Source of the DNA: Leisingera caerulea DSM 24564
GTDB lineage: Bacteria > Pseudomonadota > Alphaproteobacteria > Rhodobacterales > Rhodobacteraceae
Reading direction: 5' to 3'
Assembly: GCF_000473325.1 (NCBI RefSeq)
Contig: NZ_AXBI01000020.1
Span: forward strand, 62,001-126,000
DNA length: 64,000 nt
Position numbers and translations under genes: made by a program. Positions 5,329 through 20,206 of the stretch are shown one piece after another (position 1 is the stretch's first letter; every line of letters begins with the position of its first letter). Under the pieces are notes generated by a model. It worked only from the letters and a program-made list of their open reading frames with translations, ran no database searches and was not told where the DNA came from.

Positions 5329-5383
5329 ATTAAATTGCGCAATGCGATTTAATATTGACCCTGGAAGGCCCGCGCGCTAGCCT
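5329..5383 (+). promoter_or_regulatory. nadE promoter with 25-bp NAD-gene operator (site A)
   Basis: A 25-bp imperfect palindrome at 5329-5353 has outer arms ATTAAAT and ATTTAAT around TGC-N5-GCG. One base later comes TTGACC (5355-5360), then 17 nt, then TAGCCT (5378-5383). The same operator, one-base gap and 17-nt spacer occur before pncB and before the adenylyltransferase/pncA operon. It also lies upstream of the divergent HD-domain gene. Confidence 0.8.
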
Positions 5384-5458
5384 TCGGAGCAAGACGCCGG
5401 TTCAAAAACCGGACTTTCCGAAATATGAGGCTCTGCTCGAAGAGCTCAGGAGAATGAA

Positions 5459-7204
5459 ATGACCCAGGACACGCTCCACATCGCACTCATCCAGGATAAT
5501 CCCATCGTCGGCGATGTCGAAGGGAACGCGCGCCTCGCGCTCAAGCACCTTGAGGAAAATGGCGATGCGGATCTTGTCGTCTTCTCGGAGTGCTTTGTCT
5601 CCGGCTATCCGGTTGGGGACCTGGTGCTGCGGCCCGGCTTTATTGCGTCGGTCGAGGAGCAGATCGGGCGGATCCGGGCGGAAGTAATTGCGAAAAACGG
5701 CCCGTCGGTGCTGATTGGAGCACCTGCCGCGGGAACCGGCCTGCCCTACAATGCAGCATTTCTGATCGAGCCGAGCGGTGCGATGCGCATCGTGCGCAAG
5801 CGGGAGCTGCCCACGAACGACGTTTTCGATGAGCGCCGGACCTTCGCTGGCGCCGAAGGCAACCCCTCCCCTCTCTCATTCCGCGGCTTCAGCCTGGGCG
5901 TGCAGATCTGCGAAGACATGTGGCACGGCCAGGTCTCCCGGGCTCTGGCGGATGAACTCGCGGATGTCCTGCTGGTACTCAATGGCTCGCCGTACCAGCG
6001 CGGCAAGCAAGAGGTCCGCCTGCGCCATGCCGCGGCCCGGGTGCGGGCGACAGGCCTTCCGCTGCTGTATGTCAATCAGGTCAGCGGTCAGGACGAGCTT
6101 GTCTTTGATGGCGGAACATTCTCGATGAACACGGACGGGGCGGTGGCTGGCGGTTGCGCTTTCACTCCGACGGTCATGAAGGTTGTGCTGCGGCGGGAGC
6201 AGGATGGCAGCGTGCGTGTCGGCCTGGATGCTGAGCCGGAAGGGCCCCGCCACCCGGAAGACCCTATTGCGGCCGATTACAATGCCTGCGTGCTGGGCCT
6301 GAGGGATTATGTCGGCAAGACCGGCATGCCGCGCGTCTTCATCGGCGTCTCCGGCGGGCTGGATTCAGCCCTTGTCCTGGCCATGGCCGTTGATGCGATC
6401 GGTGCAGATCGGGTTATTGGCGTGATGATGCCCTCGCGGCACACCAGTCAGGCCAGCCTCGATCTCGCCGACGACCTGATGCGCCGGACCGGCGTTATCC
6501 GGGAGTGCATCAGCATCGATGAAGGGTTCGAAGTTGTCGACGCGGCGATGACGTCGGCTGCTAGCCGCCTTGCCGGCGTGCTCGGCATCGAGCCGGATCA
6601 TGGCATCGGCCGCGAAAACGATCAGTCCCGCTTGCGCGGCCTGAAGCTCATGGACCTCACCAACCGCCTGGGCGGCATCGTGATCTCCACCGGCAACAAG
6701 TCAGAGCTGGCGGTTGGCTATTGCACGCTCTATGGCGATACCAACGGAGGCTTCAATCCGCTCAAGAGCGTCTACAAGAGCGACGCGTTTGCGATGGCGC
6801 GCTGGCGCAACGAGGCCGAAGCGGTTTTGGACGTGGAAAACCCCGTTGCCCACCCGATCCCGGATGAGATCATTGCCCGCCCGCCAAGCGCAGAGCTTGC
6901 AGAGGGCCAGACCGACCAGCAGTCACTGGGCGATTATGACCTGCTCGACTGTGTCCTCAGGCAGCTTGTGGAAGTGCGCGCCGGCGCCGCAGCGGCAGCA
7001 CGGGAGCTTGAGCGCCAGTTCGGTGCAGAAGATGTCTGGAAGCGCAGCGGAGGCTATAGCGCCCTGTCTTACGCTGAGCGCATTGCCGGGCTGTTGCGGC
7101 GGGCGCAGTATAAGCGCGATCAGACCTGCCCGGGCGTGAAGCTGAATGAGGTCGATTTCGGCCTCGGCTTGAGGCTTCCGATCGCTGGCAGCTACAAGCT
7201 GTAG
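5459..7204 (+). CDS. nadE: Glutamine-dependent NAD+ synthetase
   Basis: A 581-residue two-domain NadE that makes NAD+ from nicotinic acid adenine dinucleotide, ATP and glutamine. The N-terminal nitrilase-type glutaminase has its triad: Glu44 (FSECF), Lys114 (RKREL) and Cys151 (QICEDMW). The C-terminal synthetase has the pyrophosphatase loop SGGLDS at 298-303 and ISTGNKSELAVGYCTLYGD. All key residues are present, so it should be active. The start ATG 5459 follows AGGAG. It is transcribed alone from the operator-bearing promoter and is the last step of the salvage route whose other genes are nearby. Confidence 0.97.
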   Translation: MTQDTLHIALIQDNPIVGDVEGNARLALKHLEENGDADLVVFSECFVSGYPVGDLVLRPGFIASVEEQIGRIRAEVIAKNGPSVLIGAPAAGTGLPYNAAFLIEPSGAMRIVRKRELPTNDVFDERRTFAGAEGNPSPLSFRGFSLGVQICEDMWHGQVSRALADELADVLLVLNGSPYQRGKQEVRLRHAAARVRATGLPLLYVNQVSGQDELVFDGGTFSMNTDGAVAGGCAFTPTVMKVVLRREQDGSVRVGLDAEPEGPRHPEDPIAADYNACVLGLRDYVGKTGMPRVFIGVSGGLDSALVLAMAVDAIGADRVIGVMMPSRHTSQASLDLADDLMRRTGVIRECISIDEGFEVVDAAMTSAASRLAGVLGIEPDHGIGRENDQSRLRGLKLMDLTNRLGGIVISTGNKSELAVGYCTLYGDTNGGFNPLKSVYKSDAFAMARWRNEAEAVLDVENPVAHPIPDEIIARPPSAELAEGQTDQQSLGDYDLLDCVLRQLVEVRAGAAAAARELERQFGAEDVWKRSGGYSALSYAERIAGLLRRAQYKRDQTCPGVKLNEVDFGLGLRLPIAGSYKL

Positions 7205-7268
7205 CCATGTTCTGCCTGGCCGCGGAAGCGGCCAGGCGCAAACCTGCAAGAGAGCGGACTCCCGGCGT

Positions 7269-8396
7269 TCAGCCCTCGGCGGGATCTTCGTTGTAAACCT
7301 CTTCAAAGATAAACATGTCCCGGATGATTTGCTTGTCCTTTTCCCGGATGGTCACGTTGTCGTAGTATTGGCGCCCGTTGAACCGGACGACCGTCTTCTT
7401 CGAGCTGGCAATTCTCTCAAGAAGCCGGCGCAGGTCATCATCGACACGCATATCGGCCCATTCCCAGATCTCGCTGTCATTGTCCCGCTTCCAGCTGGCG
7501 CCGCGCAGCGGGACGATCTTTCCGTCGATGTTGAAGCTGGCGCGCTCAACAAACAGCCAGGAGTCCGAGGTGTAGACCAGCCTCATGCGCAGCCAGACTT
7601 CGCCGTTCTTTTCCCCTGCATAGACGGACAGATAGGGGCGGGTGTCCATGTACCTCGGTTCGTTCGGATGCGTCAGCCAGGTTGTGCCGTTGAATTCGTC
7701 CGTTTCCCTTCTGAGCCTCTTGGCGATCGCTGCGCGCTTGCTGCGCACCGCCTGCTCGTACTGATGGGATTTCTGCTGATAAGCGGCATGGTCAGGCCGC
7801 AGCAGGGACAATGCCCGGTATCCATCGAAGTTGGCCTGGGCATTGCTTGCCGGCAGCGGCTTTACATAGGCCAGCACCAGCTCCTCAGCGGCCGCGCGCT
7901 GCTCGGCGGTCAGTTGATCAGCAAAGCTGTCCTTTAAAAGCGCCCGGGTGACTTTTTGCCCGTTCTTGTCCTGAAGCGCCTTCCGGAAGGAGTACGGCAC
8001 CGTGCTCACCGTACCAGGCTGCGCTGCGCTGCTGGCGGCTGCTGCAGGTTCGGATTGAGCGCCGCTGTAAACGTCTATCCCCTCCCCCGCGGCGACGGCC
8101 TTGATGAAGGCATCATCCGGCAGGATGGCGAGCAAGGCGCGGGCAGTTTCCTGGCGCTCTGCGCGGTTTTTGTCGCTGAGAACTACCAGCCGCTCCATCA
8201 GCATGAGGCGGGCTTGAAGTTGCTGTTCCGGCGGGAGGTCGGCAGTCTTGCCGTCAAGAACGTCCGAAAGCTGGTCGCGGCTGCCAGCTTCAAGCGCTCG
8301 GGTGATCGCATTCATATCAGCAGGTTCGGAGGCGGCTGCGGATGCGGATGCGCAAAGTAGAAGCGCCAATGCGGAAAGTTTTGTTGGAGATCTCAT
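7269..8396 (-). CDS. Secreted hypothetical protein with C-terminal beta-rich domain
   Basis: A 375-residue protein starting with a signal peptide (MRSPTKLSALALLLCASASA), so it is probably periplasmic. Residues 20-220 are helical and charged. The C-terminal part (WLRMRLVYTSDSWLFVERAS, VVRFNGRQYYDNVTI, IIRDMFIFEEVY) looks like a small beta domain; I do not recognise the family. The start at 8396 was preferred because it puts the signal peptide at the N-terminus; the frame also has a TTG 30 nt upstream. It converges with nadE. Confidence 0.65.
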   Translation of the reverse strand: MRSPTKLSALALLLCASASAAASEPADMNAITRALEAGSRDQLSDVLDGKTADLPPEQQLQARLMLMERLVVLSDKNRAERQETARALLAILPDDAFIKAVAAGEGIDVYSGAQSEPAAAASSAAQPGTVSTVPYSFRKALQDKNGQKVTRALLKDSFADQLTAEQRAAAEELVLAYVKPLPASNAQANFDGYRALSLLRPDHAAYQQKSHQYEQAVRSKRAAIAKRLRRETDEFNGTTWLTHPNEPRYMDTRPYLSVYAGEKNGEVWLRMRLVYTSDSWLFVERASFNIDGKIVPLRGASWKRDNDSEIWEWADMRVDDDLRRLLERIASSKKTVVRFNGRQYYDNVTIREKDKQIIRDMFIFEEVYNEDPAEG

Positions 8397-8568
8397 CGTT
8401 CGGCCATGCTCGCTATAGAAATACAAGCGGGAATAGAGAGGAACGACGCGTCTTCTTCAAGAACGGAAGCGGATCCCGTTCCCGGGCGTGGCTTTCCAGC
8501 CAGCCCAGCAGCCTTCCTGCCTGGGGCGCGGGCCCGAGGGGCAGGAAGGAGCCATGTATGGCAAAGGC

Positions 8569-8703
8569 TTACTTCGCCGGCCCGGCGGCTTCAGCGTCCT
8601 TCCCGGCAGCTTTCTGTTTTGCCGCTTCGGCCGCCTTGGCTTCCTGCTCCCGGATCCAGCGGTTTTCTTCAGCCTTGGCGCGATCGTTCAAGCTGTTCGA
8701 CAT
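8569..8703 (-). CDS. Small charged protein, 44 residues
   Basis: A short gene starting at ATG 8703 behind GGAGAT. The product (MSNSLNDRAKAEENRWIREQ onward) is helical, rich in Ala, Lys and Glu, and ends GPAK. Its promoter is clear: TTGCCG, 17 nt, TACTCT on the minus strand, with the octamer (as TTTTCGCA) in the leader. It is divergent from pncB. No function can be proposed; the organised promoter and ribosome site argue that it is a real gene. Confidence 0.6.
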   Translation of the reverse strand: MSNSLNDRAKAEENRWIREQEAKAAEAAKQKAAGKDAEAAGPAK

Positions 8704-8718
8704 ATTTGATCTCCAATT

Positions 8719-8726
8719 TGCGAAAA
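8719..8726 (-). promoter_or_regulatory. TTTTCGCA octamer in the leader of the small gene
   Basis: On the minus strand TTTTCGCA lies between the predicted -10 box TACTCT and ATG 8703. It is the shared octamer in the opposite orientation to most copies. Confidence 0.45.
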
Positions 8727-8793
8727 TTCCTGGAGAGAGTAGCATCGGCCATTTTGATCGGCAATGAGAAAACAAATTCGCAGAGTGAAAGGT

Positions 8794-8848
8794 ATTAAAG
8801 TGCAATGTGCAATTTAATCTTGCCTGGCCCGTCATGGCGATGTAGAAA
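8794..8848 (+). promoter_or_regulatory. pncB promoter with NAD-gene operator (site B)
   Basis: The 25-bp operator at 8794-8818 has arms ATTAAAG and ATTTAAT around TGC-N5-GCA. One base later is TTGCCT (8820-8825), then 17 nt, then TAGAAA (8843-8848). The geometry is identical to sites A and C. Confidence 0.8.
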
Positions 8849-8900
8849 GGAGTCAAAGCTGATGTTCCCGGCACGCACCGGGCAAATTGAGGAGAACGAG

Positions 8901-10259
8901 ATGAGCGTCGACATTGCACAACGGGTTCACAACCACAATTTTCGCATCGACCCGGTGGTCCGCTCGCTGCTCGACACCGATTTCTACAAGCTGCTGATGA
9001 CCTATTTCATCTGGTGCAACTACCCGGATGTGTCCGTCACCTTTTCTGTGAAAAATAGAACGAAATCCGTGCGGCTGCCGGAATCCATTTCGGAGAACGA
9101 GCTGCGCGAACAGCTCGATCACGTCAGGAGCCTGCAGTTCACCGAAAGCGAGCTGATCTGGCTGCAAGGCGCCCGCTTCTATGGCCAGCGCAATATTTTC
9201 CCGGGCGAGTTCATTGATGCCCTTCGCACAATGCGGCTGCCCGAATACCAGCTGCGCCAGGAAGGCGGCGAGTTCATTCTCGACTTTACCGGCCCCTGGT
9301 GGATGGTCTCCCATTGGGAGATCCCGGCCCTTTCGATCATCAACGAGCTGCGCGCCCGCTCCGCAATGGCGGACATGAGCGCTTACCAGCTGCGGGTTCT
9401 CTATTCCAACGCGACTTCGAAGCTGGTGCGCAAGCTCAAGGATCTGCGCGGCGCAGGCGTGCCGCGGATCGCCGAGTTCGGAACGCGCCGCCGCCACAGC
9501 TGGCTGTGGCAGGACTTCGTCATCAAGGCGATGCGTGAGGAGCTTGGCGGGAATTTCCTGGGCACCTCGAATGCGCTGCATGCGATGCGCCACGGCATTG
9601 AGGCTATTGGCACCAATGCGCATGAGCTGCCGATGACCATCGCTGCTCTTGCCCGCCTGGAGACCCAGGGCAGTGAGGATGCGAGCGTTGCGCGCGATGC
9701 GCTGTTCGAAAGCCAGTACGAGGTTCTGCGGCAGTGGCAGCAGACCTTCATCGGCAACCTCCTGGTGGCACTGCCCGATACGTTCGGATCGACCCAATTC
9801 CTGAAGAATGCCGGAGAAAATTTCCCGGAGATCGCTGCTTGGAAAGGCTTCCGGGAAGACAGTAAGGATCCCTTCGTCGGCGGTGAGGAGAAAATCGCGT
9901 TCTGGAAGGAGATCGGGCAGGATCCGCGCCAGAAAAGCCAGCTGTTTTCCGATGGCCTGGATGTTGACCAGATGATCGCGCTCCACGAGGCGTTTGGCGG
10001 CCGGATCCTCGACGGTTACGGCTGGGGGACCATGGCGACCAACGATTTCCGCGGCTGCGATCCCCGCGGTCTGGATTTACTGGATCCGATTTCCGTGGTG
10101 TGCAAGGTGAGCTATGTCATGCGCAGCGGGCGCGGCGGCATCTCCGCGGTGAAACTGTCGGACAACTACGAGAAAGCCACCGGCTCGGAGCGTGAAATCG
10201 CCTACTACCGTGAAGTATTCGGGGCTGAGGGCGTCGCAAACGCGCCGGTGATCGTCTGA
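8901..10259 (+). CDS. pncB: Nicotinate phosphoribosyltransferase
   Basis: A 452-residue PncB, which converts nicotinic acid and PRPP to nicotinic acid mononucleotide. Typical segments are DTDFYKLLMTYFIW at the N-terminus, GPWWMVSHWEIPALSIINEL, RIAEFGTRRRHSW (family FGTRR motif) and FLGTSNALHAM. The start ATG 8901 follows GAGGAGAACGAG; the open frame extends to 8805 but that would overlap the promoter. Its stop overlaps the start of the next gene (TGATG), so the two are translationally coupled. It supplies the mononucleotide for the adenylyltransferase-like step. Confidence 0.96.
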   Translation: MSVDIAQRVHNHNFRIDPVVRSLLDTDFYKLLMTYFIWCNYPDVSVTFSVKNRTKSVRLPESISENELREQLDHVRSLQFTESELIWLQGARFYGQRNIFPGEFIDALRTMRLPEYQLRQEGGEFILDFTGPWWMVSHWEIPALSIINELRARSAMADMSAYQLRVLYSNATSKLVRKLKDLRGAGVPRIAEFGTRRRHSWLWQDFVIKAMREELGGNFLGTSNALHAMRHGIEAIGTNAHELPMTIAALARLETQGSEDASVARDALFESQYEVLRQWQQTFIGNLLVALPDTFGSTQFLKNAGENFPEIAAWKGFREDSKDPFVGGEEKIAFWKEIGQDPRQKSQLFSDGLDVDQMIALHEAFGGRILDGYGWGTMATNDFRGCDPRGLDLLDPISVVCKVSYVMRSGRGGISAVKLSDNYEKATGSEREIAYYREVFGAEGVANAPVIV

Positions 10260-10762
10260 TGGCGGGGCGGAAGAAAGCGCCCGCCAGCACGCCGGTTTCG
10301 CCGGTCTTGCAAGGCTTGGTCGATCAGGTGCCGGTCACGCCGGCGCTGATGGACCGTCTGATCGAGCGGATCAACAATCAGACGGTGATCCGCGCCGCGG
10401 CCCAGTCAGATGTGACGCAGGAAGTGGCTCTGCTTGCGGCGCTGCTCCACCTGCGTGAGCGTGAAAGCCTTCTTACGGCCCTGGTGGAGGATCTGGAACA
10501 GGCTTTGCCCGGCGACAAACGGACCTACAGGGCTCTGAGGCGGCGGGTGGATGAAGCGCTCCCTGACCCTGACCCTGAAACCCAGGCTGACGGCCTGGAG
10601 CCTGACCTGACGAGCGCGGAAGCCGCGGATTTCGAAAGCTGGCTCTTCATGCAGTCGAATGTCATGCATCTGCAGCCGGTGCCTTTAATGCTGCGCTCCT
10701 GGCGCGCGGATGAGGAATGGCGCAATCGAACGCACGAAAAGCCTTACAGGTCAAAAGCCTGA
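10259..10762 (+). CDS. Hypothetical protein coupled to pncB
   Basis: A 167-residue protein whose ATG overlaps the pncB stop (TGATG). It is largely helical and acidic toward the C-terminus (DPDPETQADGLEPDLTSAEA) and has no signal peptide, membrane segment or recognised motif. Tight coupling to pncB suggests matched amounts of the two products, but a role in NAD metabolism is only inferred from position. Confidence 0.7.
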   Translation: MAGRKKAPASTPVSPVLQGLVDQVPVTPALMDRLIERINNQTVIRAAAQSDVTQEVALLAALLHLRERESLLTALVEDLEQALPGDKRTYRALRRRVDEALPDPDPETQADGLEPDLTSAEAADFESWLFMQSNVMHLQPVPLMLRSWRADEEWRNRTHEKPYRSKA

Positions 10763-10782
10763 ATTCTGGATGGAGGTTGAGC

Positions 10783-11016
10783 ATGCCGGACTTTAACCGG
10801 GTCAAATTCTGCAGGGATGGCCGAGTTCTGATCACCGGCTCCCCGGCCGTTGCGGTTGCGCGCTGGGAAAAGAATCCGCGCGAGGGCTGGGATATTTCCT
10901 GCGTGCTGCCAGGCATGGAGGACAGGTCCATCAATGCGCTGCCGAGGACCAGTGCAAACAGCACGATCATGGGCTGGTACTCGGCCCATATGGAAACCGC
11001 TGGCGGGAAGAAGTAG
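10783..11016 (+). CDS. Small hypothetical protein, 77 residues
   Basis: Starts at ATG 10783 after TGGAGG, 20 nt beyond the previous stop, so it likely belongs to the pncB operon. The product (MPDFNRVKFCRDGRVLITGS onward) is compact, with several Trp and Arg residues and a Lys-rich end. No family recognised. Confidence 0.6.
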   Translation: MPDFNRVKFCRDGRVLITGSPAVAVARWEKNPREGWDISCVLPGMEDRSINALPRTSANSTIMGWYSAHMETAGGKK

Positions 11017-11086
11017 AGCGTTAACCCTGTAGTGCCTATCTGACCGCAATGTATTTGAGAACCTTTGTCATTTTGGGAGAAGCGTC

Positions 11087-11614
11087 ATGTTTGGACTCGG
11101 CAAAAAGGATGCCCAGGGAAATCAGAAGCGGATCGAGCACCGCGGCAAGCACGTCCGGGTGTCCCGGACCGGCGGCGCGTCGGTGCGCGCGCAAAAGAAG
11201 GTCGGCGGCGTCACCCTGACTGCAAACAGCAAGCATGGCATCCGCGCCTCGAAGAAAATCGCTCCTGGCACCCGGGTCGCCATTCAGCGCGGACGTTTCC
11301 AGCTGCTCGGCCGCTGGTCGAAAGGCCCCTTCAATTTCAACTTGTCAAAGTCGGGCGCATCCGTCTCCGCAAAGAACCGGCGCGGCTCTTTCAATTTCAG
11401 CAATCCGAAGCGCTCTTCCTTCAAGGTGGCCGGCGTGCAATTTCGAGGTCAGAAGGCGGCTCAGTTCCAGCTTTTCTACATGATGTACCGGATCACTGTC
11501 TTTTTTGCGGCCGTGGCCCTTTGGCTGATCGCTTTCCCGTTTGTCCTGCTGTTCGACTTGATGCGCCTGATCTTCCGCCGCCGGCGGCAGGTGCAAGAAG
11601 GGGAAGCTGGCTGA
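11087..11614 (+). CDS. DUF4236-like membrane protein
   Basis: A 175-residue protein starting at ATG 11087 after GGGAGA. The N-terminal 120 residues are basic and glycine/serine-rich, with the repeated pattern FNFNLSKSGASVSAKNRRG resembling DUF4236 proteins (LNLSKSGVSVS). A single hydrophobic segment (ITVFFAAVALWLIAFPFVLL) near residues 135-155 is followed by an Arg-rich tail, suggesting an inner-membrane anchor. Function unknown. Confidence 0.65.
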   Translation: MFGLGKKDAQGNQKRIEHRGKHVRVSRTGGASVRAQKKVGGVTLTANSKHGIRASKKIAPGTRVAIQRGRFQLLGRWSKGPFNFNLSKSGASVSAKNRRGSFNFSNPKRSSFKVAGVQFRGQKAAQFQLFYMMYRITVFFAAVALWLIAFPFVLLFDLMRLIFRRRRQVQEGEAG

Positions 11615-11664
11615 AATTTTCGCCAGGTGATGGCATGGTAGCCTGAAAGTTTCCGGAGGAAAAA

Positions 11665-12294
11665 ATGAGCCGCAAGGTTGAAGTTCTCGGGCGCGAGCGC
11701 GTCTATGACGGCTTTTTCAAGGTCGACGCATGGCGCTTGCGCCAAACGGCGGAAGGCCGTGAATTCGAATTCTCACGGCTCAATTTCGAGCGCGGTCATG
11801 CTGCCGCAGTGCTCCTCTATGACCCAGAGGCCGACAGCGTGATGTGTGTCGAGGAGTTCCGGATCGGCATGCTGGCGGCTGGCTTTGAGGGCGATGCATG
11901 TTTCAGCCTGGGGCCTGTGGCGGGCATGATTGACGCTGGCGAAACCCCACGCGGCGCGGCCATCCGTGAAGCCCACGAGGAGGCCGGTGTCGAGATCGAG
12001 GATCGCGATATCCTGGCGGAGTTCACGACCCTCCCCTCCCCCGGCGGTTCCAGCGAGACGGTGACGATGCTCCTGGCGCGCGCAGATCTGAGCGGGCTCA
12101 AGGATGCCGTCTACGGCGAGGCGGGTGAGGCCGAACAGACCTGGCGCCGGGTGCTGCCGCGGGAAGAGGTGCTTGCGCGCGTCGAGCGCGAGCCATCGGC
12201 CGGTCACCTCAGCGTTCTGATGATGAAGCTGGAACTCTTGCGGCTGCGCGGCGTGCTGTGCGAACCTGCGGCGCAAAACGGCCCGGAAATGTAA
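11665..12294 (+). CDS. NUDIX hydrolase, ADP-ribose pyrophosphatase type
   Basis: A 209-residue protein of NudF/ADP-ribose-pyrophosphatase length. The Nudix box is complete: G-MIDAG-E-TPRGAAI-REAHEEAG. After it, EFTTLPSPGGSSET is the loop typical of ADP-sugar hydrolases. These enzymes split ADP-ribose into AMP and ribose-5-phosphate, so it could recycle ADP-ribose released when NAD is consumed. It has its own promoter (TAGCCT at 11640-11645) with TTTTCGCC, one base off the octamer, in the -35 position. Lacking a winged helix, it is not an NrtR-type regulator. Confidence 0.88.
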   Translation: MSRKVEVLGRERVYDGFFKVDAWRLRQTAEGREFEFSRLNFERGHAAAVLLYDPEADSVMCVEEFRIGMLAAGFEGDACFSLGPVAGMIDAGETPRGAAIREAHEEAGVEIEDRDILAEFTTLPSPGGSSETVTMLLARADLSGLKDAVYGEAGEAEQTWRRVLPREEVLARVEREPSAGHLSVLMMKLELLRLRGVLCEPAAQNGPEM

Positions 12295-12423
12295 GGAGTG
12301 CCGACGGCACGTCAATCAGGATACGGTAGCGCTCCAGCGCCGGATGCAGAACTCTGGATCGAGAGGGACGCGCGGGCACCGGCCGGCGGCAGCCAGCCGG
12401 ATACGGATTCTCCGCAGTCAGGG

Positions 12424-12996
12424 TTATGACCCGATAAAGACGTCCATCGTGTAGCGGCCGTTGTCCAGCCGGTAGATCTCGATCTGCTCAACCGCAAGGT
12501 CTGCGATACCGTGCCCCCAGATCCCGAAGATCCCCTGTGTTTGCGGCCGGTTCAGGATGACGAGCTCCCCGAACTGCTGAGACGCCGGCGCAGGGTCTTC
12601 CCCTTCTTCGGACAAGTAGATCCCCTGATAGGCTTCCCGGATGACCTCCAGGAGCTTTGCTGCAGAGAACCCCTCGTCAGGACCGCCAGAAACATGCACA
12701 AGGGCTGCGTTGTTCATAGGGTAGTCCAGAAGGAAGCTGAACTCTGCCGGCATCACACCGGGTGCAAACATGTCCCGTTCGCCGACGGTGTCCTCGTAGG
12801 CGCCATGTGCGCCAAGACCTTCCTTGGAGAAGGCCAGCATCGGTCTATTGTCATCCTGCGCCTCTTCACCCTCTTCGCCGGGCCGGAAAGCTTCCAAGGG
12901 AGCCAGAAGGTTAATGGTATCGAGTTTAATCGCCCCCTTGCGGTTTGACAGGGCTTGATGCTCTTCGCTCGTTGCGACGGAAAGTTCGATCTTCAT
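12424..12996 (-). CDS. Hypothetical acidic protein
   Basis: A 190-residue protein; ATG 12996 has AAGGAG 7 nt upstream, so the longer open frame to 13311 is not used. It is acidic (GEEGEEAQDDN) and has a repeated theme of hydrophobic strands (FSFLLDYPM, ELVILNRPQ, YTMDVFIGS). No domain recognised. It is divergent from the 13223 gene, with one octamer copy in the shared region. Confidence 0.65.
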   Translation of the reverse strand: MKIELSVATSEEHQALSNRKGAIKLDTINLLAPLEAFRPGEEGEEAQDDNRPMLAFSKEGLGAHGAYEDTVGERDMFAPGVMPAEFSFLLDYPMNNAALVHVSGGPDEGFSAAKLLEVIREAYQGIYLSEEGEDPAPASQQFGELVILNRPQTQGIFGIWGHGIADLAVEQIEIYRLDNGRYTMDVFIGS

Positions 12997-13158
12997 TGGA
13001 CATCTCCTTGTGCCCATTTCGCGCGCTGCGCCTCGGGACCGTGCAGGGCTGAACCGCCCTGGACAGAAGCTTGCAGTACCTTGGAGGTAAGCCTGGTTAC
13101 AACAGGATTTGCAACCCCGTCCGGGTCTGCAGGTATCGCTTCTTTCCCATGAGACTGG

Positions 13159-13171
13159 TATTTTGCGAAAA
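13159..13171 (+). promoter_or_regulatory. Promoter with TATTTT overlapping TGCGAAAA
   Basis: TATTTT (13159-13164) runs straight into GCGAAAA, giving TGCGAAAA at 13164-13171, about 52 nt before ATG 13223. This matches the layout of the capsule promoter at 33495-33507. The -35 is weak. Confidence 0.4.
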
Positions 13172-13222
13172 ACGGATGTCGTGGCGACTGAGCAGCTGGC
13201 CGGTCGAGCTTGGAGAAACGAA

Positions 13223-14656
13223 ATGACAGCAGAACGCCCCACCTGGAAGGTTGAAGACCTGACCCTTACCGGGTCATTCCCGGCGCGGTCGATTGATCCG
13301 GATGCCGCCATGGAGGCGGCTTTGGCCTACAAGATCTCTCATGATCGCCTGAATGACGTGACGGCGCTTGTGAAGGCCGCCATGGGCTATTTCATTGAGG
13401 CCTCGCAGGATGCCCTGGTTGAGCTGGCATGCAAGGCAACGGCTGGCTCCCTGCGCGCGCCGGACGGCTGGGAGCTTGAAGTGCTGCCGCAGCGAAACGG
13501 TCAGAGCGCAGATCTGCTTCTGCGGTCAGCGGTTGCGGGCGGATGGCATATTGGCTTGCGCACGGCAAAGGAGTTTACCGGCGGCGCACATGCGCGCCTT
13601 GAGGAGCTCAACCAGGAGATCGATCGGGATCTGGATGCTCTGGGCCTGACCGGGAAGGAAAAGATCCTTCGGCGCATTTTCCCCAAGGGTGACCTGACGC
13701 CGGCGGAAAAAGCCTATGCAGCGCTCGAAGCCGATCCCGAAAGCTACCGCGGCCTGCAGCCCGGCGATCGTTTTTCCCGTTTGACGATGAATGCCTTCAC
13801 GCTCAAAGGGCCCCCTGCAGGGGTGGAGGATTTCAGCCGTCTTGATGAGATCCTGAAGGCTGATCCGGACAAGGATTACCTGTATGGAAATCATGTCCAA
13901 GCCGTCCCGGAGCTATCATTATCGGACGAAAGACGGGAACTCCTCAGCTCAAATTCCCTGAACATCGTTCATGGATCCGCAGAGGTGGCGTTGTTGGTGT
14001 TGTCCAGGCTGCTGAGCGAAAACGGTCTTGCAGACATCGTCAAAGCGCGGAGCGACGAGCTGAGCCTGAAGGGCTGGCGCTGCTACGACAGCTCCCCCGG
14101 CGGCGCGGAGATCATGGATGCTGCCACGGCCGCGGTCTACCGCTCCGGAGGACTGTTTGACGAGCGCGTTCTGGAGCGGGTCTCCCGCTTTTCCCGGGGC
14201 ATTGCGGCACATGATGTGAACCTTCGCGCGCCGGACTTTATGAGCCTTGCTGCTGGACTGGTGAAGCACGGCTATACCAGCCCCGAAAGGCAGTTTGAGG
14301 CAAATGATGGCAAACACGTTGGCTATGCGCGCGAAGAGGTTTTTGGCTTCTCGGTGGAAGTGAAAACGCAGCGAGGCATGTACCGGGTGGATCTGCATAT
14401 CGAGGATGGTGAGATGATGCGCATCTGCGCCTTCCGGGAGAGTGGCGGCGTTGCCCGCCCGGTTGGCCGGTTCGTGCGGGGTGCGGATGGCTTTGAGGAG
14501 GATTACGCGGGCCGTCGCACCGGCGGGCCCGCAGTAGCCTATCACATCAGTAAGGTGATGGACATGAACGGGATCATCGCCGCGCTTTCGACCCTCAGCT
14601 GTGTCCTGGATATGGAATATCCGGAGGCCGAGGCCGGAGACCTTCCGGCTCCGTGA
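13223..14656 (+). CDS. Large hypothetical protein, 477 residues
   Basis: Starts at ATG 13223 with GGAG 10 nt upstream. The protein is cytoplasmic by composition, with no signal or membrane segment. It alternates helical stretches (DALVELACKATAGSLRAPDG) with strand-like ones (FGFSVEVKTQRGMYRVDLHI near the C-terminus). I recognise no family. A strong hairpin follows its stop, so it is probably a single-gene transcript. Confidence 0.65.
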   Translation: MTAERPTWKVEDLTLTGSFPARSIDPDAAMEAALAYKISHDRLNDVTALVKAAMGYFIEASQDALVELACKATAGSLRAPDGWELEVLPQRNGQSADLLLRSAVAGGWHIGLRTAKEFTGGAHARLEELNQEIDRDLDALGLTGKEKILRRIFPKGDLTPAEKAYAALEADPESYRGLQPGDRFSRLTMNAFTLKGPPAGVEDFSRLDEILKADPDKDYLYGNHVQAVPELSLSDERRELLSSNSLNIVHGSAEVALLVLSRLLSENGLADIVKARSDELSLKGWRCYDSSPGGAEIMDAATAAVYRSGGLFDERVLERVSRFSRGIAAHDVNLRAPDFMSLAAGLVKHGYTSPERQFEANDGKHVGYAREEVFGFSVEVKTQRGMYRVDLHIEDGEMMRICAFRESGGVARPVGRFVRGADGFEEDYAGRRTGGPAVAYHISKVMDMNGIIAALSTLSCVLDMEYPEAEAGDLPAP

Positions 14657-14664
14657 AAGCTGAA

Positions 14665-14692
14665 GAAGCGAGCCGTTTGAGCGGCTCGCTTC
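14665..14692 (+). terminator. Hairpin terminator after the 13223 gene
   Basis: Arms GAAGCGAGCCG and CGGCTCGCTTC are exact complements around a 6-nt loop, 8 nt after the stop. The following sequence is only mildly T-rich, so termination may be partial or bidirectional. Confidence 0.75.
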
Positions 14693-14718
14693 TATCTCCA
14701 CCCTCAGGGCATCCCGGC

Positions 14719-15054
14719 TTACGCCGTGATCCCAGGCCAGCGCCCTGCCCCGTCCTCGAAGGCTTCCTTGATCTGATCGATCGTCAGCTGGGAGACCGGT
14801 GCGGCATTGATGTCTTGGATTTGCCCAATCAGGGTGTCCGCAGTGGCCTGACCAAAGGCTCGGGCCAACTGCTCCCGCAGCATGGAGGGCGCAGCTCCCA
14901 TGAAGACCGGAGCAACCGCATAGTGCTGCAGCAGCGGCAATGCAATTTCGATGTCCCGGCTGGACGCTTGGTTCAGCTGCGCGCGCAAATCTGCAACCTC
15001 GGCTTCGAGGCTGCAGATCTTTTCGGTCAAGATGCGTTCAGTGACCCCGTTCAT
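14719..15054 (-). CDS. Small coiled-coil protein
   Basis: A 111-residue protein starting at ATG 15054, 5 nt after the stop of the upstream outer-membrane-like gene, so it is the last gene of that operon. The N-terminus (ERILTEKICSLEAEVADLRA) is a predicted coiled coil; the rest is helical. No family recognised. Confidence 0.65.
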   Translation of the reverse strand: MNGVTERILTEKICSLEAEVADLRAQLNQASSRDIEIALPLLQHYAVAPVFMGAAPSMLREQLARAFGQATADTLIGQIQDINAAPVSQLTIDQIKEAFEDGAGRWPGITA

Positions 15055-15059
15055 GCTGA

Positions 15060-15743
15060 TCAGAACCGCCAGGACAGGCCGACACGCAGGTAGGGCACGA
15101 CGTCCAGGTCTTCCAGGTCCGACGCCAGATCAGAAATCTCGCTGTCGACCTGCGCCTGCGTGAAGGTGCCGGTCGGGTCGCTGGCCGAGACCTTGAAGCC
15201 ATCACCGAACAGAGCGCCGGCGTCCATCGAGAAGGACAGCCTGCGCGAGACCTGCTTATCGAAGCCGATCGCCACGGCGGGCATGAAATCGGTGCGGGAT
15301 TCAACGCTTGCGTTCAGGCGGGAGGTGATGCCGCCGATCTCAACATCGCTGGAAGAGAGCGTGCCGGAGATATCGGTCATGAAGCCGCCGCCCGAGAGGC
15401 GGAACGCCCCGCCGAAGGGGTGGTAGTCCAGCCAGACACCGGTGCCGCCCATCTCGAAATCACCGCTGTAGGTCTCGCCGCGGCTTTCTTCTTCGTGGTT
15501 CACGCTGAATTCCGCGATGTTGCCGCGCATAGCGAACTTTTCGGTGAATGCATAGCGCGCTTCGAGGCTCGGGCCGAAGACACTGACGCCGAGCCCGATC
15601 GAGAACGGAGACACGTCCCGGCCGGTCTGAGCGGAAATGCTGGCCGCGGCAATGTTGGAGGCGCTCAGCGGCACGAACTCCGCCTCCGCCAGAGCGGGTG
15701 TGGCGAACGCCAATGCGGCAGCAAAGATGATGGAGCGTTTCAT
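15060..15743 (-). CDS. Outer-membrane beta-barrel-like protein
   Basis: A 227-residue protein with a clear signal peptide (MKRSIIFAAALAFATPALA) and alternating strand pattern ending in an aromatic residue (YLRVGLSWRF), the usual signal for outer-membrane insertion. Segments such as GTGVWLDYHPFGGAFRLSGG resemble small OmpA-like/OmpW-like barrels. The start at 15743 puts the signal peptide at the N-terminus. It lies in a minus-strand cluster with the genes on both sides. Function unknown beyond the envelope location. Confidence 0.75.
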   Translation of the reverse strand: MKRSIIFAAALAFATPALAEAEFVPLSASNIAAASISAQTGRDVSPFSIGLGVSVFGPSLEARYAFTEKFAMRGNIAEFSVNHEEESRGETYSGDFEMGGTGVWLDYHPFGGAFRLSGGGFMTDISGTLSSSDVEIGGITSRLNASVESRTDFMPAVAIGFDKQVSRRLSFSMDAGALFGDGFKVSASDPTGTFTQAQVDSEISDLASDLEDLDVVPYLRVGLSWRF

Positions 15744-15784
15744 AAGGGGGTCCTTAGGTAGATGTGGAATTTCGGAACCGGGTG

Positions 15785-16312
15785 TCAGCGCGCGAGCGAG
15801 ACGCGGCCCTCTTCCAGGCGGTCATTGATGTCTGCCAGGGCCTGACGGATCTGTGCTTCCCCTGCCGGGAAATTGACGGTCGAGCGGTTCTCGTTGAACC
15901 AGATGCGGGTCGACACCAGGAACGGGACAGCGCCCGTTTTCACGGCGGGCCGTTCTGCGAATACAACCGCACGGGTTCCGCTGATCCGGATGGGCGCGGT
16001 GTCGCCATTGCCATCGGCTTCGAGGGTCACATTGCTGCGCGCGATGGCCTTGGCCGCACGGGAAATCTCCCCTTTGCCAGCCCGGCCGTTGTCCGACGAG
16101 TAGAAGAGCAGGATGGTATCACCGGCCGGCTCCGCATCCGGATGGCCATAGTCCGCGGTGCGGCCAGTTCCGGCCAGGCCCTGCAGTTCGTTCGCAACCC
16201 GCAGGGCTGCCTCCGCGCGCTCTGCGCTCGCAACCGGGTGGCGGCGGCCGGTGACGTCCTGCAGGGACAGGGCGGGGGCGACTTCCGCGGCAAAATGCTT
16301 TCAGTGTTTCAT
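15785..16312 (-). pseudogene. Hypothetical gene with in-frame TGA at codon 4
   Basis: The frame starting at ATG 16312 reads MKH, then TGA, then continues open for 172 codons (KHFAAEVAPALSLQDVTGRR to EEGRVSLAR). No ATG or GTG lies near the start of the open part; the first internal ATG is at 16030 and would lose more than half. A promoter (TAAGGA, one base, TGCGAAAA on the minus strand) sits right before the ATG. Either a nonsense mutation has inactivated it, or translation starts at a non-standard codon. The product has no recognised domain. Confidence 0.5.
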
Positions 16313-16327
16313 TTTTCGCATTCCTTA
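16313..16327 (-). promoter_or_regulatory. Promoter with TAAGGA next to TGCGAAAA
   Basis: On the minus strand TAAGGA (16327-16322) is followed after one base by TGCGAAAA (16320-16313) and then directly by ATG 16312. Transcripts starting 6-8 nt after the -10 would have almost no leader. The promoter overlaps the last codons of the PARP gene. Confidence 0.5.
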
Positions 16328-17608
16328 TGCTTCGAATTCGACGAGGTATTTCAGTTTGGCCTGAGAGGTCCGGTAGACGATCATTTCATTGTTGCGCACG
16401 ATGTCCTTCCCGCCGCGGGCAAAGACGGAGTCGTAGCCCTTAGGGGGCTTCACACTCGAACCGGTCCGGTCCGGATGCCAGGGCGCCCCCATGGCCACAT
16501 CGGCGAGGAACATGTAGCACCGGCTGTCCCGCGACCCGCCGTCCCAGTAGCCATAGGCGTAGTTCAGCGACTTGGTGGATTGGTCAGAGAAATACAGACC
16601 GTCGCCGAACATGCGGCCGGTGACATGAATCGATCCCCTCGATTTCGGGATGATGAGACCGCTCTTGAGGATCGAGAGAAGGTTGTGAGCCCGGGTGCCA
16701 TGCCAGAGCTCCATCACGCCGCCCAGCTTGGCGCCGTCGGCATCGTAGTCCCGGTCCATGGCCCCAAGAGAGACATCGAAAATACGCGCTGGCTTCAGCC
16801 GGTGCGATGCATGCATCGACTGGCGGCCCTGCTTGTAGAACTCCATGACGCGTTTGCGGACAGCCGGATCGTCATTGATGGACATCGAGACGTCAAAGAT
16901 CTTCTCTGCAGGCTTCTTGCTGCCGCCTTCGGCCTCCCGCATGCGCTGCTGTGCGGTTTCGATAGAAGCTTCCAGCTGATCCAGCAGCGCACCCTGCTGG
17001 GTCAGGCTTTCCAGGCCGGTGATAAAATCACGGTGCCAGCCACGCTTGGATCCAACCTTCTGCGGAACGAGCATCAGGTACTCTTCCAGCGGCTTCATGA
17101 AGTTTGGCGTGTCGAAGTCCTGGCGCTCGACATAGGGCGTGAAGCCCTCAAGGAGCGCGCGCGCCTGAGCGATGTTTTGCGCGGTTACGACGCCGAGCGG
17201 TGTGGTAATCACCCCGGTCGTCAGGTCCACATCCATCTGGCCGCCGGAGGCGGCGATGATCTGGTGGCGATTGATTTTCGCAAGTTCGCGAACAAGTTCG
17301 GCAACAACCGCGTTGCCTTGGCCGATCTGTTCTTCAGCGGCTGACACAAGCTCGGATCCGTTCACCGCATTGCTGGCACTCGGGGCGCCAACGATCTCGA
17401 TCTGCCGGTACCCCTTGCGCTCCTTCTCATTGATCTTGCGCTGAAACAACGCATCACCGCTTCCCAGGCTGCGGGTTTGACCTTTTGACCCGACCCGCCC
17501 ATTGCGGGTGGTGACCATCCCGGACGCATCCTTGGTGATTTCCCAGAATTTGTTGTTGTTCGCACGGGTATCGGTGAGGACGTACATCCTCTTATCAACA
17601 GCGCTCAT
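16325..17608 (-). CDS. WGR-domain poly(ADP-ribose) polymerase
   Basis: A 427-residue bacterial PARP. Residues 8-70 form a WGR domain (KFWEITKDASGMVTTRNGRV), the DNA-break-sensing module of eukaryotic PARPs. A helical regulatory-like domain follows (about 85-215). The catalytic domain has the H-Y-E triad of true polymerases: His303 (LWHGTRA), Tyr339 (GDGLYFSD) and Glu408 (NEMIVY). It should therefore consume NAD+ and attach ADP-ribose to proteins or DNA. The start ATG 17608 was preferred over TTG 17614. Upstream is a divergent region with octamers in inverted orientation. Confidence 0.93.
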   Translation of the reverse strand: MSAVDKRMYVLTDTRANNNKFWEITKDASGMVTTRNGRVGSKGQTRSLGSGDALFQRKINEKERKGYRQIEIVGAPSASNAVNGSELVSAAEEQIGQGNAVVAELVRELAKINRHQIIAASGGQMDVDLTTGVITTPLGVVTAQNIAQARALLEGFTPYVERQDFDTPNFMKPLEEYLMLVPQKVGSKRGWHRDFITGLESLTQQGALLDQLEASIETAQQRMREAEGGSKKPAEKIFDVSMSINDDPAVRKRVMEFYKQGRQSMHASHRLKPARIFDVSLGAMDRDYDADGAKLGGVMELWHGTRAHNLLSILKSGLIIPKSRGSIHVTGRMFGDGLYFSDQSTKSLNYAYGYWDGGSRDSRCYMFLADVAMGAPWHPDRTGSSVKPPKGYDSVFARGGKDIVRNNEMIVYRTSQAKLKYLVEFEA

Positions 17609-17633
17609 CAGCAATCCGTAATCTCAATCTACA

Positions 17634-17688
17634 TTTTTCGCACAAGCTACCACCGAAGCTTGAGCTGCGCAAAAGGAAATGCGAAAAA
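17634..17688. promoter_or_regulatory. Divergent promoter region with inverted octamers
   Basis: TTTTTCGCA at 17634-17642 and TGCGAAAAA at 17680-17688 form a 9-bp inverted repeat between the divergent PARP gene and the 17768 gene. For the PARP gene, TTGCGC (17672-17667), 17 nt, and TAGCTT (17649-17644) form a promoter whose -10 is one base from TGCGAAAA on the minus strand. Confidence 0.6.
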
Positions 17689-17767
17689 ATGAGATGGTAG
17701 GCATCAAATGCTCAATATTTTCCGGCCAGGGGAGCAAACTGCCTGAAGAACATCGTGGAGAGATCAA

Positions 17768-18160
17768 ATGAAGACCAACGGCATCAACATCGTTCTTCTG
17801 GAGCGGTGCTTTCATCCTCTGACCGGCGCTTTCCCGGACAGCCACAAGCTTGATGATCCATTGGATGCGGGGCAGATCCAGATGCTTCGGACCGCTGTCG
17901 ATCGGATGATGGAGCACATTTCTGAGGAGGCGCGAGAGGTCGCCGCGGTGCTTGGCGGAGAAGATCATCCCGTTCCAAGCCAAATCGACACCGGCACCGC
18001 ACGGAGGCTGTCCCGTCTGATTTCATACCTCTGGGAGAAGACGCCGGATGAAGAGCGCAGGCAGCTGTCGGATTGGTTCCGCTGCTTCAACAACAGCCCC
18101 AGCCGCAGGCATCCTGCCCCCGAAAAGCCCGAAAGTGCATGCTGCGGCACATCCTTCTGA
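17768..18160 (+). CDS. Hypothetical protein, 130 residues
   Basis: Starts at ATG 17768 with GGAGAG 8 nt upstream. The product is helical, ends with a Cys-containing tail (SACCGTSF) and has no recognised domain. It is divergent from the PARP gene and shares its operator region, so it may be co-regulated with it. Confidence 0.6.
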   Translation: MKTNGINIVLLERCFHPLTGAFPDSHKLDDPLDAGQIQMLRTAVDRMMEHISEEAREVAAVLGGEDHPVPSQIDTGTARRLSRLISYLWEKTPDEERRQLSDWFRCFNNSPSRRHPAPEKPESACCGTSF

Positions 18161-18172
18161 CCACCCGGCGTT

Positions 18173-18227
18173 ATTAAATTGCATTGCGCAATTTATTATT
18201 GCCTTCCGCTGCTGATGCCAGTAACCT
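18173..18227 (+). promoter_or_regulatory. Promoter of the adenylyltransferase/pncA operon (site C)
   Basis: The 25-bp operator at 18173-18197 has arms ATTAAAT and ATTTATT around TGC-N5-GCA. One base later is TTGCCT (18199-18204), 17 nt, then TAACCT (18222-18227). The arrangement is identical to sites A and B. Confidence 0.8.
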
Positions 18228-19047: not shown

Positions 19048-19554
19048 ATGGCGAAAATGCTGACCGTGAACCAGAAGGCCGTGCTCCAGAAGCTGTCCGG
19101 AGTATCAGAGGGACTGTGCAGCCGGGACTTCGCCGCCATTGCCACCGTCCAGCACGGCCGCTGGGAGTGGGCTCAACCTATCCTGAAGGCGCTCGAGGCG
19201 CGCGGCTTCGTCCAGCGCGTTGGCCGCAAGACCGCCAGGGGGCAGGCCTGGCAGATCACGGCGGCAGGCCGGGCGGCGGCCAGCACCGAGATCCCGGCTC
19301 GTCCGGTTTCCGGGAAGCTGAGCATGACCATGGAGAATGAGATCCTGGCGACCGGCAGGTCGCAAGCGAAGGGTATCCCCTACACGCGCTGCATGCACCG
19401 GTCCACCCATCAGGCGCTCGAAGCGCGCGGCCTGGTGACCATCGTTCAGAGGCCCGATAGCTGGCGCGAAATTCGTCTGACGCAGGCAGGCGTTGAGGCA
19501 TTCCAAACGCTGACCGGCGAGCCGCTCGAGATCCCCGTCGAAATCGATGCCTGA
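19048..19554 (+). CDS. Tandem winged-helix-like protein, candidate regulator
   Basis: A 168-residue protein beginning one base after the previous stop. It has two similar halves, each looking like a winged helix: KAVLQKLSGVSEGL...ILKALEARGFVQRVGRKTAR, and NEILATGRS...HQALEARGLVTIVQRPDSW. The repeated LEARG(F/L)V pattern supports internal duplication. Lying inside the NAD operon, it is a natural candidate to bind the 25-bp palindrome, but that is inference. No ligand domain is visible. Confidence 0.65.
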   Translation: MAKMLTVNQKAVLQKLSGVSEGLCSRDFAAIATVQHGRWEWAQPILKALEARGFVQRVGRKTARGQAWQITAAGRAAASTEIPARPVSGKLSMTMENEILATGRSQAKGIPYTRCMHRSTHQALEARGLVTIVQRPDSWREIRLTQAGVEAFQTLTGEPLEIPVEIDA

Positions 19555-19591
19555 GGCTCCATACCAACCGAAATTCTGAAAGGATATGATG

Positions 19592-20206
19592 ATGCCCATT
19601 ACCCCGAAACCGACCGACCTCCTTTGCTTGATCGACATCCAGAACGACTTCTTGCCAGGCGGAGCTCTCGCTGTGCCGGATGGGGATGAGATCCTCCCGC
19701 AGGCGCATATGCTGGCCATGCAATTCGACAATGTGGTGCTGACCCAGGACTGGCATCCGATCGATCACAAGAGCTTCGCGGCCGAACATGAGGGGTGTGA
19801 ACCCTTCGAGGTGATCGAGGTGGACTATGGCCAGCAGGTTCTCTGGCCGGTGCATTGCGTGCAGGGCACGACGGGGGCGGAGATCGCCCTGGCGCCATCG
19901 GTTCTGGACAAGGCCCAGGCGATCTTCCGCAAGGGCTTTCGTCCGGGCATCGACAGCTACAGCGCATTCCTGGAGAACGACGGCACCACGCCGACCGGCC
20001 TCGCCGGCTTCATGCGGGAGCGCGGCTTGACCCGCGCCGTGTTCGCGGGCCTGGCGCTGGACTATTGCGTAGGCTTCTCTGCCCTTGATGCGCGCAAGCT
20101 TGGCTTTGAGGCAGCCGTGGACCTAGGCTCCTGCCGTGGCATCGCGGATGCATCGATCGCGGAGCGCATGGCCGAAATGAAGGCGGCCGGTGTCGAGCTG
20201 ATCTGA
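19592..20206 (+). CDS. pncA: Nicotinamidase
   Basis: A 204-residue isochorismatase-fold amidase that turns nicotinamide into nicotinic acid, feeding PncB. The catalytic triad is visible: Asp15 (LIDIQNDF), Lys114 (FRKGF) and Cys159 (LALDYCVGFSA); the metal-site region DWHPIDHKSF is also present. Three ATG codons follow each other at 19586, 19589 and 19592; the last gives the best spacing from AGGA. It is the third gene of the operon driven by site C and would recycle nicotinamide released by the ADP-ribosyltransferases in this window. Confidence 0.95.
   Translation: MPITPKPTDLLCLIDIQNDFLPGGALAVPDGDEILPQAHMLAMQFDNVVLTQDWHPIDHKSFAAEHEGCEPFEVIEVDYGQQVLWPVHCVQGTTGAEIALAPSVLDKAQAIFRKGFRPGIDSYSAFLENDGTTPTGLAGFMRERGLTRAVFAGLALDYCVGFSALDARKLGFEAAVDLGSCRGIADASIAERMAEMKAAGVELI

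Follow-up and report, generated by a model that had tools for sequence, protein, structure and literature searches.

A candidate NrtR regulon for nicotinamide-to-NAD salvage on a megaplasmid-like contig of Leisingera caerulea

We analysed a window of 64,000 nucleotides from Leisingera caerulea DSM 24564 (positions 62001-126000 of contig NZ_AXBI01000020.1, here called C5, which is 564,457 bp long in a genome of 5.34 Mb and nine contigs), and found one 25-bp imperfect palindrome in front of three transcripts for the salvage of nicotinamide adenine dinucleotide (NAD). About 10.2 kb to the left of the window, and outside it, lies nrtR, a gene that is itself preceded by a more divergent copy of the palindrome. 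Its product, rather than the protein encoded at 19048-19554 that a sequence-only reading of this DNA had put forward, is most likely the regulator of the three NAD transcripts. We favour, with a probability of roughly 0.84, an NrtR regulon that is borne on a plasmid and serves the salvage of nicotinamide to NAD, and in which NrtR would repress the three transcripts and its own gene. Coordinates and supporting matches are collected in Table 1.

Within the window, the operator pattern in IUPAC letters, with up to three mismatches, matched the three operators only (six rows when both strands are counted), compared with an average of 0.01 across 100 dinucleotide shuffles. All three are followed by one base, a −35-like hexamer starting TTG[AC]C, exactly 17 nt and then TA, so that the coordinates and spacing confirm the earlier claim of one operator at 5329, 8794 and 18173 with identical promoter geometry. 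The arrangement TTG[AC]C-N18-TA occurs 32 times on C5 over both strands (18 + 14), and three of these occurrences are the operator-linked promoters. We observed 72-84% identity within the operator, against 20-32% in the 100 bp before it and 30-37% downstream; because these flanks are unrelated, the common geometry is not a recent copy, and promoter duplication as its source was ruled out, there being no relationship outside the operator and the −35. The −10 hexamers are of poor quality; a promoter scan, which gave fewer sites than its own shuffles, did not list any of the three putative promoters. Provided that the hexamers are correctly placed, the operator centre lies at about −49.

When the search was extended to the whole genome, the pattern at up to three mismatches was found in four places, all of them on C5 and none on the other contigs. 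Three are free of mismatches, and the fourth, with three, lies before nrtR. By count alone this fourth place is unremarkable, as the reversed control pattern also has one match genome-wide. The sequence-only reading had suggested scanning with a matrix built from its three sites; over C5 the nrtR site scores 27.6 bits with this matrix, the next-ranking site on the contig 11.4 and the top site of three mononucleotide shuffles 16.6. As read from the sequence, the site also holds a possible −35. Three of the four genome-wide operator places precede NAD transcripts, which supports the proposal of a small NAD-salvage regulon.

The protein encoded behind the fourth site has an N-terminal NUDIX domain and a C-terminal NrtR winged helix (NrtR_WHD, cut-off 27 bits), both scoring above cut-off, and it is the sole NrtR_WHD match in the genome at a threshold of E 0.001. 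Among solved structures its closest relative is 3gz5/3gz6 (E 7e-35), which we take to be the NrtR of Shewanella oneidensis. The Nudix signature GX5EX7REUXEEXGU is degenerate and unmatched in this protein, and matched in the NUDIX protein of the window (11665-12294). An impaired Nudix signature is described for the NrtR repressors, whose motifs differ strongly among groups, in the accessible part of PMC4666351. The window NUDIX protein, by contrast, has an intact box, the look of an adenosine diphosphate ribose (ADP-ribose) pyrophosphatase and no DNA-binding domain that we could find, in keeping with the earlier statement that it is not the regulator.

Similar operators stand before related nrtR genes. 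Among 394 genomes of the same family, our own included, 12 encode an NrtR that reaches E 1e-20, and the scan of named genomes contributed the best 80 of 567 confirmed nrtR loci. We counted the core TGC-N5-GCA in 160-190 bases upstream of each gene, with C5 itself excluded, expectations taken from mononucleotide shuffles and class assigned from record titles, one unnamed family being counted as alphaproteobacterial. The core precedes 11 of the 19 alphaproteobacterial nrtR genes with an identity of at least 40% (0.76 expected). The corresponding figures are 1 of 8 (expected 0.31) for those below 40% and 3 of 67 (expected 2.2) for the remaining genes. Examples of such sites are ACTAAATTGCAATTTGCAAGTTGCA (locus L042), TTAAAATTGCAATATGCAAGTTGCA (a Rhodovulum plasmid) and ATTTTCTTGCACCTTGCAAGGAAAT (Paracoccus homiensis). 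In a 94-row tree, in which C5 was labelled by hand (its own site reads TGC-N5-GCG) and L063 was left out as a presumed near-copy of L037, the core label takes 8 changes, fewer than in any of 500 shuffles (mean 15.1). Furthermore, nrtR is divergent from genes for NadM-Nudix and nicotinate phosphoribosyltransferase at L055 and L058 (core present) and at L038 (core absent).

Several observations weigh against this reading. The nrtR gene is not adjacent to its proposed targets, lying 15.6 kb from nadE, and its site has three mismatches, a TGC-N5-GCG core and another promoter geometry than the three window sites, whose identical position at weak promoters would suit an activator too. Eight of the 19 alphaproteobacterial nrtR genes have no core within the bases examined. 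The core-bearing group is not a single clade in the tree, and C5 pairs there with L068 (Denitromonas, no core) at a modest support of 81/82 and on long branches; we are unsure of this placement. Sixteen of the 19 loci have no match to PncB, NadE, the adenylyltransferase, NadM or NAPRT in the available DNA, which for six loci is just 2.5-7.3 kb, and one of the sixteen (L057) has a PncA-like match of 26% identity. In genomes G230 and G190 the sole exact operator match precedes nrtR, and their single-mismatch places look like chance, since G054, G036 and G238 have such places too. On the Rhodovulum plasmid NZ_CP020385 (L036), a second exact operator at 8823-8847 stands before a gene annotated as a TonB-dependent receptor, with a Pfam match just below cut-off. 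C5 itself is thus the best case for NAD genes as operator targets; in most relatives they are unconfirmed.

Other genes were seen near the operators and regulators of these relatives. The TonB-dependent-receptor-like gene of the Rhodovulum plasmid, behind its NrtR-type operator, is a possible uptake target. At two loci nrtR is divergent from a radical SAM gene (438-1412 at L042, in a genome of the same family, and 6861-7862 at L086, Bradyrhizobium). Of ten genes scanned near related nrtR genes, two matched radical SAM, one each matched Band_7, adenylosuccinate synthetase and TsaD, and five matched no family.

The mechanism that we infer would work as follows. NrtR, with its Nudix-fold sensor and winged helix, would bind the palindrome before the three transcripts, as a dimer by analogy with its family, as well as the weaker copy before its own gene. 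The transcripts would together convert nicotinamide to nicotinate (PncA), nicotinate mononucleotide (PncB), nicotinate adenine dinucleotide (the predicted adenylyltransferase) and finally NAD (NadE). On NAD breakdown, ADP-ribose or a related ligand would bind the Nudix domain, so that repression would be lifted and salvage switched on, and the intact Nudix hydrolase encoded after pncB, if it is co-transcribed with pncB, would remove ADP-ribose and close the loop. The regulon is probably ADP-ribose-responsive. According to the same portion of PMC4666351, ADP-ribose releases the NrtR repressors of Shewanella and Synechocystis, and a response to NAD is given for Corynebacterium.

The best surviving alternative concerns the sign of this control, namely that NrtR, bound at a constant place centred near −49, is an activator of the three NAD promoters and represses its own gene only. 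It would account for the single spacing from the operator edge through the −35 to the −10 in three promoters that are otherwise unrelated in sequence (20-37% identity), for the poor hexamers TAGCCT, TAGAAA and TAACCT, unlisted by the promoter scan, and for the possible −35 inside the nrtR site, as in autorepression. However, PMC4666351 and PMC6800001, in the parts available to us, present characterised NrtR proteins as repressing NAD genes, and constant spacing is also explicable under repression, since a repressor must overlap or abut the −35; we consider activation unlikely. A further and more doubtful idea is an inducible NAD-restoration circuit on the plasmid, in which NrtR would sense the ADP-ribose that defence or toxin enzymes set free when they destroy NAD, and would induce the jumbo-phage-type cassette, perhaps as an activator at the three promoters, and the co-induced ADP-ribose pyrophosphatase would reset the sensor. 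If true, the circuit would be the plasmid's own counter to NAD-depletion immunity; phage NAD synthesis has been proposed as a counter to NADases in the available text of PMC9503650.

That the operator is bound by the tandem winged-helix protein of the third operon (19048-19554), as first proposed, appears very improbable. The protein does sit in that operon and has two weak winged-helix-like matches, and it is missing from three operator-free plasmids described below. These matches fall below every curated cut-off, its match to phrog_38848 (function unknown) is weak (E 1e-4), and the AlphaFold model of the protein alone, with a predicted local distance difference test score (pLDDT) of 42.6, is too poor for use. 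We found no match to it in any of the nine genomes or records with a core-bearing nrtR (G230, G190, W04, which is a plasmid record only, and those of L057, L058, L059, L061, L085 and L123), with a search that recovers the protein in its own genome, and tblastn against plasmids, phages and IMG/VR found none either. These relatives separate the two candidates, because NrtR and the core are present in them and the 19048-19554 protein is unmatched. In addition, there is no operator before 19048-19554 alone, but one before nrtR, the single NrtR_WHD gene of the genome, and the proposal is left unsupported. A weak, partial relative of the protein is encoded at C5:26080-26301 (L164), outside the window (35% identity over residues 8-78, E 7e-4), so that the 19048-19554 product could be one of a small family specific to the plasmid.

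The same four gene families, nadE-pncB-adenylyltransferase-pncA, occur as a single gene run on the Salipiger sp. CCB-MM3 plasmid NZ_CP014597 and on the Bosea megaplasmids NZ_AP022849 and NZ_CP016463, whose adenylyltransferases are 56, 40 and 36% identical to the window protein, respectively. Unlike C5, none of the three whole plasmid records has an operator at up to three mismatches, an NrtR_WHD match or a match to the 19048-19554 protein. The sequence-only reading had named related elements that keep the genes and lack the operator as evidence against its regulon. All three plasmids are of this kind, which formally counts against it, but the joint absence of operator and NrtR_WHD in them fits NrtR as the binder. 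They cannot separate the two regulator candidates, because the 19048-19554 protein is missing there as well. Upstream of 16803 on the Salipiger plasmid (L033), a different inverted repeat, TATCC-N9-GGATA, precedes the nadE operon and is perhaps another regulator's site.

Control of the plasmid genes by a host chromosomal NAD regulator such as NadQ, which governs NAD genes in Rhodobacterales according to the accessible text of PMC5343134, is the most remote alternative, as the NadQ motif given there, ttATRCTCannntGAGYATaa, differs from the 25-bp operator and has no copy under 3 mismatches genome-wide and two places at 3, none in the window (the NadQ protein itself was not searched for), and as the operator, at up to three mismatches, is confined to C5.

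Table 1. Features of the candidate NAD-salvage regulon; positions are those of the window unless prefixed C5.
Feature	Position	Strand	Evidence
nrtR, 227 amino acids (aa), NUDIX + NrtR winged helix	C5:51156-51839	-	PF00293 48.2 bits, PF21906 61.0 bits
Fourth operator, 3 mismatches	C5:51874-51898	-	edge 34 bp before nrtR start
Operator 1, 25-bp imperfect palindrome	5329..5353	+	41.0 bits, matrix from three window sites
Putative nadE promoter, TTGACC - 17 nt - TAGCCT	5355..5383	+	read from sequence; unlisted by promoter scan
nadE, glutamine-dependent NAD+ synthase, 581 aa	5459..7204	+	PF02540 1e-52, PF00795 3e-21, NF010588 above cut-off
Operator 2, 25-bp imperfect palindrome	8794..8818	+	41.6 bits, matrix from three window sites
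Putative pncB-unit promoter, TTGCCT - 17 nt - TAGAAA	8820..8848	+	read from sequence; unlisted by promoter scan
pncB, nicotinate phosphoribosyltransferase	8901..10259	+	PF04095, PF17767; NF003704 above cut-off
Open reading frame, 167 aa, overlaps pncB stop	10259..10762	+	no family matched
NUDIX, ADP-ribose pyrophosphatase-like (YffH/AdpP), intact Nudix box	11665..12294	+	PF00293; TIGR00052 82.7 bits, cut-off 79.55
Operator 3, 25-bp imperfect palindrome	18173..18197	+	41.5 bits, matrix from three window sites
Putative third-unit promoter, TTGCCT - 17 nt - TAACCT	18199..18227	+	read from sequence; unlisted by promoter scan
Predicted nicotinate/nicotinamide mononucleotide adenylyltransferase, 261 aa	18261..19046	+	fold match to archaeal nicotinamide mononucleotide adenylyltransferase (NMNAT)
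Protein with two weak winged-helix-like matches	19048..19554	+	sub-threshold PadR/HTH_34/DUF6293_C
pncA, nicotinamidase	19586..20206	+	PF00857; NF008623 174.6 bits, cut-off 174 (margin 0.6 bit)

Examination of the genes bore out the earlier assignment of the three operators to nadE, pncB and the adenylyltransferase-like/winged-helix/pncA unit, the adenylyltransferase through its operon context and a fold match of moderate confidence. The pncB start was picked by the preceding AGGAG, and searches were run with 8904-10256. After pncB come several open reading frames on the same strand and then the ADP-ribose pyrophosphatase-like NUDIX gene, which is perhaps part of the pncB transcript. The predicted adenylyltransferase has no Pfam family at E 0.001; its best PDB folds are archaeal NMNAT (E 2e-5, template modelling (TM) scores 0.43/0.62, 15% identity, pLDDT 70), and its homologues are found in nadE-pncB-x-pncA operons and also on phage contigs near pncB, nadE and sometimes pncA. 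Its activity is in doubt, because the HxGH active-site motif reads HAGK, and the enzyme may have changed or lost its function. The motif is otherwise altered in the Salipiger relative and kept in those of the two Bosea plasmids, the jumbo phage Phosso and six IMG/VR sequences. Contig C7 holds a further pncB, 52% identical to the window copy, and a further nadE; at least these steps on C5 are therefore extra copies. Elsewhere in the window, at 60447-61937, a member of the cytosine/purine permease family (PF02133, E 6e-109) is a possible nucleobase importer.

The cassette is also shared with phages. PncB is 51-56% identical to that of C5 in the jumbo phages Atu_ph07 and Phosso and in three of six IMG/VR contigs, and 39% identical in one contig. 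Nearby are genes for NadE and a homologous adenylyltransferase and, in three contigs, PncA; the longest of the six contigs has 465 kb. No convincing operator was found in the 41-kb phage stretches, where the matrix scores at best 18.9 in Atu_ph07, at a place within a gene, and 14.7 in Phosso; with this matrix, the nrtR site of Rhodovulum reaches just 19.3. When C5 was compared with one 41-kb stretch of each phage, PncB alone was strongly similar and the other matches were weak or partial.

We take C5 to be a megaplasmid on the strength of its gene content. Families found in the scan of 62 large C5 proteins (out of 625 chosen open reading frames) include FlhA, FliF, a DotM-like protein, primase, topoisomerase, glutamate synthase and transposases, and there were no capsid, terminase, portal or tail families among the first 25 of 62 Pfam and the first 25 of 83 PHROG families. 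That C5 is a jumbo phage, suspected from the similarity of PncB to Atu_ph07 and Phosso, appears less likely, as only PncB is strongly similar and no structural families were among those displayed. A related plasmid backbone was not found, one 20-kb stretch of C5 having no near DNA match, and its primase has distant relatives only; of 188 records, 1 spans 80% of the protein.

That an extrachromosomal-type replicon should carry a full NAD-salvage route under regulation, in a genome with further copies of pncB and nadE, suggests that a large plasmid gains from controlling its NAD supply, and a cassette common to jumbo phages would tie the plasmid to the arms race over NAD depletion. The location of nrtR also illustrates that a regulator can be missed where a window boundary cuts it off. 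The literature that we searched contained no plasmid-borne NrtR regulon of NAD genes; the alphaproteobacterial operator may already be published.

Compared with known systems, the C5 regulon would belong to the NrtR kind. Like the NrtR proteins of Shewanella, Synechocystis and Mycobacterium, that of C5 combines a degenerate Nudix box with NrtR_WHD, and it shares with them a palindromic operator, NAD-gene targets and a site before its own gene. The operator core TTGC-N5-GCAA differs from GTTTTCGA-N7-TCGAAAAC of Mycobacterium and from ATA-N-TTTA-N3-TAAAA-N2-ATA of Streptococcus, both as given in the available portion of PMC6800001. The NadQ regulon of Alphaproteobacteria likewise has a winged-helix regulator of NAD genes, but another sensor domain, motif and set of targets (nadABC, and in Rhodobacterales also nadE and nadD; PMC5343134, from the same accessible text). 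The predicted targets on C5 make up the whole deamidating salvage route. Unlike known NrtR systems, the regulon lies on a 564-kb megaplasmid-like contig with the regulator unlinked by 15.6 kb, and this plasmid setting, together with a cassette shared with jumbo phages, is unusual for a regulon of this kind.

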